From the NCBI GenBank assembly GCA_001438605.1, contig LIDE01000023.1, positions 1 through 55,966 on the forward strand: a DNA stretch of 55,966 nucleotides. Reading direction: 5' to 3'. This DNA comes from SAR92 bacterium BACL16 MAG-120619-bin48 (GTDB lineage Bacteria; Pseudomonadota; Gammaproteobacteria; Pseudomonadales; Porticoccaceae). Of this stretch, positions 40,381 to 44,966 are shown one piece after another (positions within the stretch are counted from its first letter, which is position 1; each line of letters starts with the position of its first letter). Below the pieces are notes generated by a model. That model saw only the letters and a list, made by a program, of their open reading frames with translations, did no database searches and was not told the origin of the DNA. The translations under genes were made by a program, and so were the position numbers.

Positions 40381-41754
40381 TCAAAGTGCATCCAAGGCCT
40401 CAGTCACTTTGCGCACACCAATCACCTGCATGCCCTTAATTGCCTGCTTGGGTACATTGCCTGCGGGCACTATGGCCCGCGTGAAACCGTGTTTGGCCGC
40501 TTCGCGCAGACGCTCTTGACCATTCGCCACTGGACGAATTTCACCGGCCAACCCAACTTCGCCAAAAACCACTAAATTTTGCGGCAAAGGCTGATCGCGG
40601 AAGCTTGAGATCACCGCTAAAATCAGCGCCAAATCCGCGCTTGTTTCAAGCACTTTGACGCCACCCACAACATTAACAAACACATCTTGGTCACCCACCA
40701 TAATGCCGCCGTGACGGTGCAACACGGCCAATAACATCGAAAGTCGATTGTGGTCCAAACCCACCGTCACACGGCGCGGGTTGCCCAAATGACTGTCGTC
40801 GACAAGGGCCTGCAACTCAACCAGCAAGGGCCGAGTTCCCTCCCACACAACCATCACCACACTGCCTGAGGAGACCTCTTCACCGCGCTGTAAAAAGATA
40901 GCCGACGGGTTGGGCACTTCACGTAGGCCTTTGTCAGTCATCGCGAAAACGCCCAGTTCGTTCACCGCGCCAAAGCGATTTTTATGGCTGCGCAGGGTTC
41001 TAAAGTGGCTGTCGCTAGACCCCTCAAGCATCAGCGAACAGTCGATCATATGCTCCAGCACCTTCGGCCCCGCCAAGGAACCATCCTTCGTCACATGGCC
41101 GACTAAAATCAGTACGGTACCCGTCTGTTTGGCAAACCGCACCAACATAGCCGCGCTCTCTCGCACCTGCGACACACTGCCCGGCGCCGACGCCACCTCT
41201 TCGAGATGCATGACTTGAATTGAATCCACCACCAAAATTTTTGGCCGTTTCTGCTCAGCAATCGCGCAGACCGTCTCTACCGACGTCTCTGCCATAATTT
41301 CTAATTTATTGGTCGGCAGGCCCAAGCGATTTGCGCGCATAGCCACCTGCTGAGGCGATTCCTCCCCCGTGACATAGAGCGATGCATGGTTTTCCGCCAA
41401 TTTGCACAGTGTTTGCAACAGTAGCGTACTTTTCCCCGCACCCGGCTCGCCCCCCAACAGCACGCAGGAACCCGGGACCAGTCCGCCACCGAGGACCAAA
41501 TCCAGCTCGCCGGCCCCTGTGCTAATGCGCGGAATTTCATCCAATGCGATTTCCGCTAGGGTCTTCACGGCACCATCAACCATTCCGGCAAATCCCGTTC
41601 GCGACACCTTGCCACCCCTTGCAGGCCCGCTTAAGCGAATTTCCGACAGCGTATTCCAGCCATTGCACTCGGTACACTGCCCCTGCCACTTGCGATAATC
41701 CGCGCCGCAATCGTTGCACACAAAAGCAGATTTTATTTTGTTCGGCGTTGTCAC
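40381..41754 (-). CDS. radA: DNA repair protein RadA
   Basis: A 457-residue RecA-related branch-migration protein that processes recombination intermediates. The start is set at GTG 41754, with GAGG eight bases upstream, giving a length like E. coli RadA (460). Domains in order: an N-terminal zinc finger (CNDCGADYRKWQGQCTEC), a RecA core with Walker A GGEPGAGKSTL and Walker B LVVDSIQVM, the RadA-specific KNRFG motif (HKNRFGAVNELGVF), and a C-terminal Lon-like domain (about 280-455). Convergent with the ABM gene. Confidence 0.95.
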   Translation of the reverse strand: MTTPNKIKSAFVCNDCGADYRKWQGQCTECNGWNTLSEIRLSGPARGGKVSRTGFAGMVDGAVKTLAEIALDEIPRISTGAGELDLVLGGGLVPGSCVLLGGEPGAGKSTLLLQTLCKLAENHASLYVTGEESPQQVAMRANRLGLPTNKLEIMAETSVETVCAIAEQKRPKILVVDSIQVMHLEEVASAPGSVSQVRESAAMLVRFAKQTGTVLILVGHVTKDGSLAGPKVLEHMIDCSLMLEGSSDSHFRTLRSHKNRFGAVNELGVFAMTDKGLREVPNPSAIFLQRGEEVSSGSVVMVVWEGTRPLLVELQALVDDSHLGNPRRVTVGLDHNRLSMLLAVLHRHGGIMVGDQDVFVNVVGGVKVLETSADLALILAVISSFRDQPLPQNLVVFGEVGLAGEIRPVANGQERLREAAKHGFTRAIVPAGNVPKQAIKGMQVIGVRKVTEALDAL

Positions 41755-41965
41755 TCTCGGTCCTCTTTTTGCGGTGATACTGCGATAACAGCACACACCA
41801 AAATCACTTTACTGTTGTTATGTACAGTAACTCAGTGCGCCTCGTTAAATCAATCTAAAAAGTGCTTGCATGAACTCGTAACAAGCCACTCAACGACCCA
41901 TGCGACTAGCAACGCAGCGCACGTCGAGGGTAAGATAGGGCAACTAAAAAAAGAAAAGGCCAGTC

Positions 41966-42460
41966 ATGTCTCACGCTCCGCTCGTCATCCGTATCGCTAC
42001 TATTGCTGACTGCCCCACCATACTCGATTTTATCGAACAGCTGGCCGCCTACGAAAAACTCAGCCATGAAGTCGTCGCCACCTGCTCGGCGCTGGAAAAA
42101 ACGCTGTTTGGTGAGAAGCCCAGCGCTGAAGTTCTGATCGCCGAATATGCGACTCAACCCGTTGGCTTCGCCCTCTATTTTACTAACTACTCCACCTTTC
42201 TTGCGAAGCCCGGTATCTATCTAGAGGATCTGTTTGTACAGCCAGAAATGCGCGGCAAAGGCTTTGGCAAACAGCTGCTCGCATCACTTGCCAAAATCGC
42301 CGTTGAGCGCGACTGCGGCCGGCTGGAATGGTCGGTACTCGATTGGAACCAACCCGCCATCGATTTCTATCGCTCACTCGGGGCAGTGCCTATGGATGGC
42401 TGGACAGTCAATCGTCTCACCGGCGACGCGCTGCAAAATGTCGCTCACCACGCGGATTAA
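41966..42460 (+). CDS. GNAT family N-acetyltransferase, SSAT-like
   Basis: A 164-residue cytosolic acetyltransferase. The order of elements fits the spermidine/spermine N-acetyltransferase-like branch: IRIATIADCPTILDFI at the N-terminus, LEDLFVQPEMRGKGFGKQLL with the acetyl-CoA pyrophosphate loop near residues 90-109, and LEWSVLDWNQPAIDFYRSLG near 124-143. The acceptor could be a polyamine, amino acid or thialysine; sequence does not decide. It lies 21 bases before the halohydrin-dehalogenase-like gene on the same strand and is probably cotranscribed. Confidence 0.85.
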   Translation: MSHAPLVIRIATIADCPTILDFIEQLAAYEKLSHEVVATCSALEKTLFGEKPSAEVLIAEYATQPVGFALYFTNYSTFLAKPGIYLEDLFVQPEMRGKGFGKQLLASLAKIAVERDCGRLEWSVLDWNQPAIDFYRSLGAVPMDGWTVNRLTGDALQNVAHHAD

Positions 42461-42481
42461 ACTCTCCCTGAGGAGACCAAT

Positions 42482-43162
42482 ATGAGTAGTTTACAACTAG
42501 CCGGCAAGCGTATTCTGATAACGCAGAGCGATACCTTTATGGGGCCAACGCTCTGTGAGGTGTTTAAAGAAATGGGCGCGGAGGTTATCAAAGACAACCA
42601 TCTGCTCACCGACCCCGCTCTGCCTGCACAGATTGTTGAACAGGCTGGCTACATTGATGTGCTGGTAATAAATCTCGCAATTCCAGCACCCTTTACCCGT
42701 GGCGAGCTTGTCGACGACAGCGAATGGTCTGCGACGTTTAGTGCCATCGTCGACCCTCTACCACGCCTTTGCAGAGCCGTGCTGCCGCAGATGATCCAAC
42801 GCCAGTCTGGCAAAATTTTAGTGATGGGCAGCGCCTCAGCTCTGCGCGGTATGAAGCGGGCATCCACCTACAGCGCAGCACGCGGCGCGCAACTCGCCTA
42901 TGTTCAAGCCATGGGGGTGGAAATGGCGGCGCAGGGTATTCAGATCAACGCTATCGCTCAAAACTTTGTCGACAATCCAACCTATTTCCCCGAGGAGACA
43001 AAAGCCAATCCCGCCTTTCAAGCGCGAATACAGCGCGAAGTTCCGCTTGGCCGACTCGTCTCGTTGCGTGAAGATGCACTTTTTGCCGCCTACCTGTGCA
43101 GTGACGCAGCCGACTGCTTCGTTGGCCAAGTGTTCCCAGTCTGCGGTGGCTGGACGACGTAA
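42482..43162 (+). CDS. Putative halohydrin dehalogenase (SDR fold)
   Basis: A 226-residue short-chain dehydrogenase-fold protein without the glycine-rich NAD(P) site. It has the two signatures used to define halohydrin dehalogenases: T-X4-F-X-G (Thr14, Phe19, Gly21 in TQSDTFMG) and S-X12-Y-X3-R (Ser117, Tyr130, Arg134). The spacing equals HheC Ser132-Tyr145-Arg149; SDRs have Lys in place of Arg. IAQNFVDNPTYFP and GQVFPVCGGW also resemble HheC segments. Such enzymes close vicinal halohydrins to epoxides, releasing halide, or open epoxides with nucleophiles, without NAD. Homologues occur in marine gammaproteobacteria. The natural substrate is unknown; only a GNAT gene is adjacent. Confidence 0.88.
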   Translation: MSSLQLAGKRILITQSDTFMGPTLCEVFKEMGAEVIKDNHLLTDPALPAQIVEQAGYIDVLVINLAIPAPFTRGELVDDSEWSATFSAIVDPLPRLCRAVLPQMIQRQSGKILVMGSASALRGMKRASTYSAARGAQLAYVQAMGVEMAAQGIQINAIAQNFVDNPTYFPEETKANPAFQARIQREVPLGRLVSLREDALFAAYLCSDAADCFVGQVFPVCGGWTT

Positions 43163-43213
43163 TAAGTCGTCGATTCTCTCGTTCAGACAGAAGCTTTCTG
43201 ATAAAGTGTTGCG

Positions 43214-44377
43214 ATGTCTTTGATCCCCGAAAAGCCCATTGTGATTTCGCCCACTCTCGCCGCAACCATCGGCTTAGAGGAAGCGGTGTTGCTGCAACTT
43301 CTGCAAGAGTGCCGAGCGCACCGCAGCGCCCAGCAGAGTCAGGGCTATGACTGGTTCACCGTGGCCGGTGAGAAGTTGCTGGAACTGGCGCCTTTTTGGC
43401 GCGACGACGATATCCGACGATTAGCCGTTGGACTGAATGAAAAAGGGTTGTTGCTGATCGGAGGAGCACCGTTTTCCGCGCATCAAGAGTTCCGCTTTGC
43501 GTTTAACGACGCGGTAGCCTCTAGAGCACCAGCGCCAAGTGGCGCGCACCCGCAGCCGAGCTCACAGCTGAACTCACAGTTGAGCCCCGCAACAGTAACC
43601 GCGCTGCACACGGCTGTGGAGACCTCAGCCAAAACCATTGGCAACAGTTGGCAGCCCAGCCAAGACGCGTTGCGCCAGCTCAGCCAACTGGGCGTCACTC
43701 AACAATTTGCACTGCAACAAATTCCACAATTTGTCGCCTACTGGCGGGAGCGCAATGTGCCGCGGCATAGCTGGGAGTCAAAATTTATCAAAGAAGTGTG
43801 GCGTCAGTGGCAGCAGGAAACCGCCACCTCTCATCGCCGCCGGCAAGAAGTCTCCCTCGACAACGACTGGCGCCCGTCAAACGATGCATTGCAAATATTG
43901 ATTGGCCAAGGCGGCATTAACGCCAACTTTATTGAAGACGCGATACCCGAGTTTATTCTCTACTGGCGCGACCGCGGCGACGTTTCCAGCACATGGGATT
44001 CAAAATTTATTCAACATATTCGGCGACAGTGGCAGATTTATACTGGCATGATGGAGCAGGACAATATGCCGCGTACACTGAGCGCGGACTGGCTGCCAAA
44101 AGAGTCGGTTTACGATGTCTTGGAAATGGCCAATATCAACCGTCAATTTGCAGAACAGCTGCTGCCAGAGTTTATTCTTTACTGGCAGGAAAATGGTACA
44201 CCGCAATCATCGTGGAGCACCAAATTTCTTCAGTACGTAAAGCGCCAATGGGCGCGACATATTCAACCCGCGTCAACAGGTACAGCACATGGCAAGCAAC
44301 AAGGATCTAATCCACAAGGTCGCATCAGAGATCGCAGCATCATCGATGCTCTCTCAGACCGCAGCTGGGCATCCTAA
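43214..44377 (+). CDS. DnaT-like primosomal protein with three DNA-binding repeats
   Basis: A 387-residue protein related to primosomal DnaT. The N-terminal region (about 1-100) resembles the DnaT oligomerisation/PriB-PriA-interaction domain. A linker rich in Pro, Ser and Gln follows (about 103-145). Three copies of the DnaT single-strand DNA-binding domain come next, at about 146-200, 219-274 and 292-348, each with the pattern W-x-P, then PxFxxYW and WxxKFxxxxxRQW. E. coli DnaT has one copy in 179 residues. DnaT helps reload DnaB at stalled forks. Its end overlaps the helicase-loader gene by 89 bases, paralleling the dnaT-dnaC pair. Confidence 0.85.
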   Translation: MSLIPEKPIVISPTLAATIGLEEAVLLQLLQECRAHRSAQQSQGYDWFTVAGEKLLELAPFWRDDDIRRLAVGLNEKGLLLIGGAPFSAHQEFRFAFNDAVASRAPAPSGAHPQPSSQLNSQLSPATVTALHTAVETSAKTIGNSWQPSQDALRQLSQLGVTQQFALQQIPQFVAYWRERNVPRHSWESKFIKEVWRQWQQETATSHRRRQEVSLDNDWRPSNDALQILIGQGGINANFIEDAIPEFILYWRDRGDVSSTWDSKFIQHIRRQWQIYTGMMEQDNMPRTLSADWLPKESVYDVLEMANINRQFAEQLLPEFILYWQENGTPQSSWSTKFLQYVKRQWARHIQPASTGTAHGKQQGSNPQGRIRDRSIIDALSDRSWAS

Positions 44378-44966
44378 GACAGGTAGCAAAGCGAGCAAAA
44401 CTGACCCCAATCTGATCGATGCCATCAATCAGATCTTCGCATTATTTCAGGTCAACTATCACAACCAGTATTACAGCGCTTTTGGCGACAACACCAAGTC
44501 CGAAAATTTAGCCAAGAAACTGTGGCTGAGTAAACTGAGCGACTTTACCCCAGAGACGATTCTGCGCGGCGCTGAAAAAATTATTGCCGAGAGCGACTAC
44601 TTGCCCACCCTCCACAAAATGCTAAACGCCTGCCGTCATGTCGGCATGCCTGCTGGCCTGCCATCTCCGCGCAAAGCCTATGAAGAGGCGTGTAACAAAC
44701 CGAGCCCTAAAGCAGAGCAGTCCTGGTCTCACGCGGCCGTCTACTTAGCGGCTCGCGATTGCGGCTGGCACTTTTTGGCCAACACCGTTGAATCAAAAGC
44801 CTTCGCTCCATTTGCCGACATTTATCAACAGTACTGTGAGAGAGTATTGGCGGGAGAAGAATTGATCATAGAAAAACCAAAAGCGCTGCCCGAAACGTCA
44901 TCCAAACCAGCGACCAAGAAAAAGGCACTGGCCGAACTCGACCAATTAAAGCAGCTGCTGCGCTAG
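44289..44966 (+). CDS. Lambda-P-like replicative helicase loader
   Basis: A 225-residue protein resembling replication protein P of lambda, which loads DnaB onto DNA. Recognisable features are a middle helical region (INQIFALFQVNYHNQYYSAF, FTPETILRGAEKIIAES, YLPTLHKMLNACRH near residues 45-120) and a basic, Lys-rich C-terminus. It lacks a P-loop, so it is not DnaC. It is chromosomal in many pseudomonad and marine gammaproteobacterial genomes next to a DnaT-like gene, as here; no phage genes flank it. The family call is by pattern recognition, without alignment. The start codon lies inside the dnaT-like gene in another frame. Confidence 0.78.
   Translation: MASNKDLIHKVASEIAASSMLSQTAAGHPKTGSKASKTDPNLIDAINQIFALFQVNYHNQYYSAFGDNTKSENLAKKLWLSKLSDFTPETILRGAEKIIAESDYLPTLHKMLNACRHVGMPAGLPSPRKAYEEACNKPSPKAEQSWSHAAVYLAARDCGWHFLANTVESKAFAPFADIYQQYCERVLAGEELIIEKPKALPETSSKPATKKKALAELDQLKQLLR

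Follow-up and report, generated by a model that had tools for sequence, protein, structure and literature searches.

Halohydrin dehalogenases (HHDHs) are described in an excerpt of PMC11976700 as carrying two motifs, both present in HheC; the first, T-X4-F/Y-X-G, is defined in excerpts of PMC11976700 and PMC4989007. Section 4 of PMC4989007 describes a substrate hydroxyl that is held by Ser and loses its proton to Tyr, whose pKa is lowered by Arg, and a leaving halide that enters a pocket located where SDRs hold their cofactor. As excerpted, the same source lists HheD through HheD6 as experimentally verified and puts the identity between HHDH subtypes below 30%. According to an excerpt of PMC6922532, HheD12 and its close relatives occur in marine Pseudomonas, and 5 of the 43 HHDHs reported in 2014 were of gammaproteobacterial origin. 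Within a limited literature collection, no paper was found joining HHDHs with HTCC2207, or SAR92 with dehalogenase. Here we describe hheD, a gene in a 55,966-nucleotide stretch of SAR92 bacterium BACL16 MAG-120619-bin48 (contig LIDE01000023.1; this whole stretch is called the window below). We estimate a probability of about 95% that hheD encodes a cofactor-independent HHDH of subtype D orthologous to HheD2, as judged from sequence. The features of the locus are as follows.

40381..41796, minus strand: radA, which borders the cassette upstream and lies outside it (TIGR00416, 679.8 bits)
41966..42460, plus strand: GNAT acetyltransferase, diamine/thialysine N-acetyltransferase type, which opens the two-gene cassette (PDB matches)
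42470..42475, plus strand: GAGGAG, ribosome-binding-like, for hheD, within the gap after GNAT (read directly)
42482..43162, plus strand: hheD, putative halohydrin dehalogenase of subtype D and HheD2 orthologue, 226 aa (motifs and HheD2 comparison)
42521..42544, plus strand: motif 1, T14-X4-F19-X-G21, predicted nucleophile/halide pocket, in place of the SDR glycine-rich cofactor loop
42830..42883, plus strand: motif 2, S117-X12-Y130-X3-R134, predicted catalytic triad (read directly)
43214..44377, plus strand: DnaT-like gene, which borders the cassette downstream and lies outside it (Pfam DnaT, three stretches)
44289-44966, plus strand: lambda P-like replication protein gene, overlapping the DnaT-like gene (Pfam Phage_lambda_P)

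The hheD frame starts with ATG and is open for 226 codons. Its product spells T14-QSDT-F19-M-G21 at motif 1 and Y130-SAA-R134 at residues 130-134, with Arg where SDRs have the catalytic Lys. Direct reading confirmed the two defining signatures that the sequence-only reading had placed at residues 14-21 and at Ser117/Tyr130/Arg134. In an alignment of 93 rows (the window protein and 92 relatives; 83 distinct cores), S117, Y130, R134 and G21 were conserved in every row, and T14 and F19 in 92. Both motifs were present in 92 rows; the exception, L019, has an N assembly gap across the start of motif 1, followed directly by DTFMG. The window's genome has 22 SDR-like places, hheD included. All of the other 21 were read and neither HHDH motif was found in any, suggesting that the match in hheD is more than chance. 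Twenty of these places gave 25 frames at E < 1e-4, some of them repeated in overlapping loci, and the last is L156; YxxxK was seen in 24 of the 25 frames and in L156. Comparison of the hheD protein with five close relatives gave dN of 0.09-0.19, while dS was saturated in two pairs, at 2.1 and 3.0, and not computable in the other three. The protein is under strong constraint.

A phmmer search against PDB sequences returned 7b73 at the top (444 bits, E 7.8e-133), followed by 8xxb (302 bits), HheB (199 bits) and a HheB mutant (193 bits), the others listed scoring at most 101 bits. In the structure search, 7b73 is listed as halohydrin dehalogenase HheD2, and 8xxb is a HheD8 mutant with chloride. 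By these sequence comparisons, the window protein is closer to verified HHDHs than to reductases. The alternative, that hheD encodes an ordinary NAD(P)-dependent SDR reductase resembling HHDHs by chance, is extremely improbable. The product does have the SDR fold in its predicted model, and SDR models make up the best 25 of its 174 NCBIfam matches and both of its Pfam matches, as had been foreseen in the expectation that automated annotation would call it an SDR oxidoreductase. Against this, the NAD(P) glycine-rich loop is replaced in the sequence, T-QSDT-F-M-G standing where SDRs have TGxxxGxG, the catalytic Lys is Arg, and the product matches HheD2 at 197 of 226 positions; a test for SDR signatures found neither the TGxxxGxG loop nor YxxxK in the product. 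Best profile hits to reductases had been named beforehand as a result that would count against a dehalogenase. NCBIfam and Pfam do rank reductases first, but the ranking is uninformative, since the NCBIfam scores fall far below the curated cut-offs (none of the best 25 of 174 matches reached its cut-off, the top one scoring 93 bits against 312) and in 20 of these 25 the alignment begins no earlier than residue 45, leaving the N-terminal cofactor half uncovered.

The predicted structure of the hheD product (mean pLDDT 82.9) retrieved only dehalogenases at ranks 1-10 of the structure search (HheD2, HheD8, HheB and 6a41), with FabG reductases appearing from rank 11. Superposed on 7b73, the model gave a TM of only 0.81 and an rmsd of 6.2-6.8. 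Its pLDDT falls below 50 at residues 118-122, 161-164, 187-191 and 221-226, stretches that reach into the catalytic and halide loops. The pocket and triad segments 62-72, 114-136 and 156-172 equal those of HheD2 in sequence, and the model is below 50 in parts of them. Since the model is weak in the loops of interest, the pocket geometry proposed here rests on the 7b73 homologue. Together, these results support the identification as a halohydrin dehalogenase made in the sequence-only reading and sharpen it to a close orthologue of HheD2, through phmmer, structure search and residue identity.

The motifs would make S117, Y130 and R134 the catalytic triad and the T14-G21 loop the pocket. A vicinal haloalcohol would be held by Ser117 and would pass its proton to Tyr130, whose pKa Arg134 would lower. 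The alkoxide would then close to an epoxide, expelling the halide into the Thr14/Phe19/Gly21 pocket, at the position of NAD(P) in reductases. In the reverse direction, the enzyme could use halide, azide, cyanide or similar nucleophiles to open epoxides. Catalysis by the hheD product is probable because of its near-identity to HheD2, and the mechanism itself is that of the family literature. In the cell, we infer that the product would remove small natural halohydrins, in catabolism or detoxification.

To place the locus among its relatives, 35 genomes of the genus (G000-G034) were searched for HheD and 33 of them (G000-G032) for GNAT and DnaT; many are incomplete, and absence here means not found. 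HheD was present in 13 genomes, GNAT in 15 of 33 and the flanking DnaT in 29 of 33. GNAT lay beside HheD in all 13 carriers, and two relatives, G016 and G017, had GNAT alone. The remaining 18 of 33 genomes had neither gene, and the site could be read in 13 of them. Three states of one site were thereby seen: radA-GNAT-HheD-dnaT in the 10 stretches checked (three genomes of the genus sample and seven named loci, partly from the same organisms), radA-GNAT-dnaT in G016 and G017, and radA-dnaT in the 13 others, where the DnaT-like gene adjoins radA. Two longer stretches spanning the site in G016 and G017 (L162 and L163) did not enter this comparison. Within this genus, GNAT and HheD make up a cassette of two genes flanked by radA and dnaT. 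Mapped on a tree of DnaT from 28 genomes, the three states are accounted for by two changes in all: the pair changes on a branch supported at 81/81, and HheD changes on the branch of G016/G017 (100/99). These two genomes lie inside the carriers, and loss of HheD in them is the simpler reading. The tree was midpoint-rooted, and its root does not give the direction, gain or loss, of the pair change at the base.

Beyond the genus, 21 genomes from other families of the order gave no HheD match at E 1e-40, and matches at E 1e-60 were found in 5 of 369 genomes of the class, the window's own included. Reading frames in the relatives' loci were called by codon usage; calling by length lost HheD to shadow frames in 25 of 93. 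No conserved neighbour emerged at the 64 HheD loci outside the genus, many of them truncated where the contig stops: among the genes up to six away from HheD, no family recurred in more than 7 of the 64, and offsets were scattered. The sequence-only reading had called members of the enzyme family few, which is out of date, as one genome scan gave 362 relatives, of which 80 were retained, all at least 67% identical.

The genes bordering the cassette have features of their own. A lambda P-like gene follows dnaT in all 25 stretches looked at, and no match to DciA was found in the window's own genome. The DnaT-like and lambda P-like pair is possibly a domesticated phage-type helicase loader replacing DciA. 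Upstream of radA lies a palindrome, CTGTTGTTATGTACAG (41812-41827), which we take to be LexA-box-like. A similar element precedes radA in four congeners lacking the cassette (L132, L133, L136 and L140) and is not evident in L142. Six bases ahead of the dnaT start lies CTTTCTGATAAAGT (43194-43207), kept with small changes in all seven relatives compared, which have GNAT only or no cassette. This element may be a promoter from which dnaT is transcribed with almost no leader. A promoter and terminator scan of 41750-43300 found none.

The earlier reading also held that the co-directional GNAT and DnaT-like genes reveal no pathway. This needs correction for GNAT, which is more than a bystander and belongs to the cassette of the genus; the DnaT-like gene only borders it. 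GNAT scored 173.8 bits against 2fe7, a "probable N-acetyltransferase", 173.7 bits against 12jc, a "Thialysine Acetyltransferase", and 94-101 bits against diamine acetyltransferases 1 and 2. It could be imagined that GNAT and HheD act as one unit against toxic halogenated amino or alkylating compounds, with GNAT acetylating the amine and HheD removing the halogen. Consistent with this, HheD without an adjoining GNAT was never found in the genus sample, the pair lies between radA and dnaT in every carrier stretch checked, the two window genes are co-directional with 21 bases from the GNAT stop to hheD, and the GNAT is near thialysine and diamine acetyltransferases. However, the DnaT tree explains the pattern with a single change of the pair and a single change of HheD, so that the GNAT-HheD pairing counts as one event rather than 13, and none of the 64 loci outside the genus has a close GNAT of the cassette kind near HheD, the single match there being distant (offset -6, 28% identity, E 6e-4). 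A joint function of the two proteins, weakly supported, is possible, and the particular division of labour just described is improbable.

A different partner would be a haloalkane dehalogenase, converting a vicinal dihaloalkane to the halohydrin that HheD then converts to an epoxide. Mycobacterium GP1 reportedly degrades 1,2-dibromoethane in this order, by a haloalkane dehalogenase and then a HHDH. The window's genome encodes a homologue of haloalkane dehalogenase, which scored 428 bits against a cut-off of 265 and 341 bits to 5esr. At E 1e-40 the family was present in 13 of 13 HheD carriers compared to 10 of 20 genomes in which HheD was not found (Fisher p 0.002), and over the cut-off in 12 of 13 (G021 partial) compared to 9 of 20 (G031 partial). 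Neither genome that lost HheD gave a match. Outside the genus, 13 of 50 HheD genomes (50 of the 64 loci) were over the cut-off, compared to 22 of 369 genomes of the class, two sets that are unmatched for lineage and were searched to different depths, the class search scoring at most six candidates per genome. The contrast within the genus weakens, however, when the six genomes below 1.9 Mb are left out (13 of 13 versus 10 of 14, p 0.10). Correction for descent leaves only two pairs that are independent on the tree, giving a median p of 0.5 in a sign test, which has no power; significance would take six or more such differing pairs. Among the five HheD genomes of the class sample, the window's own counted, only two had a haloalkane dehalogenase match. 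In the window's genome the gene also lies on another contig (C48, L171:1111-5196), where co-directional APH-like kinase, Nudix-like and acyl-CoA-dehydrogenase-like genes follow it, the latter two labels being sequence readings made without a profile; this gene order suggests a role other than haloalkane use. The association between HheD and haloalkane dehalogenase is thus suggestive, a lead rather than a result, and HheD as second step of a haloalkane route is doubtful.

For the epoxide, no obvious next step is seen in the window's own genome, because neither the EHN nor the LEH epoxide hydrolase family gave a match there; across the genus, LEH matched in 2 of 33 genomes, both without HheD. 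The window's genome also has three weaker alpha/beta hydrolase candidates. Pfam annotation of 73 co-directional genes adjoining HheD gave alpha/beta hydrolases as the commonest family among the best 25 of 81 (6 of 73). In Halopseudomonas (L068:7000-7968), an epoxide hydrolase homologue lies directly upstream of HheD (277.6 bits to a chain named EphA), and in Pseudomonas neustonica (L100:7000-7968) a gene of the same cluster has that position. The alpha/beta hydrolases of L085 and L078 had PDB matches named only alpha/beta hydrolase and, weakly, a proline iminopeptidase. The L068 gene order fits a putative halohydrin-epoxide-diol sequence in the Halopseudomonas lineage. HheD adjoining a predicted epoxide hydrolase gene is therefore an arrangement of a related lineage and not of the window locus. 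PMC4989007, as excerpted, allows that HHDHs may have physiological functions besides mineralising halogenated compounds, because only two of the genes then known stood in an operon with an epoxide hydrolase.

Taken broadly, SAR92-clade bacteria might keep an inherited dehalogenation capacity, made up of the haloalkane dehalogenase and the GNAT-HheD cassette, with which halohydrins formed naturally in the sea would be consumed. We regard this as unlikely; if true, the native role of HheD would become testable in a lineage where sister genomes carry the gene at this site, have lost it or never possessed it. As an enzyme, the hheD product is one further natural variant of HheD2 in a biocatalytic family. 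The comparative setting is of more use, with one site in three states (GNAT and HheD, GNAT only, neither) within a single genus and a carrier, HTCC2207, in a named record. This genome set allows a direct test of the halogenated compounds that carriers use or tolerate. The new part is the natural history of the GNAT-HheD site; the kind of enzyme is already known.

Compared with known HHDHs, the window protein is least like HheC (1pwx), with which it shares 25% identity and which ranked 47th in the structure search. HheC has a C-terminal extension (excerpt of PMC4989007), whereas the window protein ends in GGWTT. HheB (4zd6) has the HHDH fold and triad of the window protein but belongs to subtype B and has Tyr in its motif 1; the identity of 46% in the structure search exceeds the below-30% rule between subtypes. 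HheD8 (8xxb, a triple mutant with chloride) is of subtype D by name and shows both motifs in the alignment, yet is more distant (60% identity) than HheD2 (88%). The "HheC-like segments" of the sequence-only reading were accordingly not specific. The closest named genome locus to hheD is that of marine gamma proteobacterium HTCC2207 (88%); other close named loci include those of SAR92 clade bacterium H921 (85%) and H231 (79%), which places the organism with the SAR92 group. The HTCC2207 product equals the 7b73 chain in 226 of 226 residues, and its gene stands in the order radA-GNAT-HheD-dnaT, as in the window. HheD2 and the window protein have the same length and are fully identical across segments 62-72, 114-136 and 156-172. 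They differ by 29 substitutions, of which the segments compared contain only V13I and A16S in segment 13-22, position 16 being variable within motif 1, and S221C, A225T and V226T near the C-terminal end. This near-identity is the ground for the probable assignment to subtype D. The hheD product is a close cousin of the already characterised and crystallised HheD2, a find that is real but ordinary as an enzyme.
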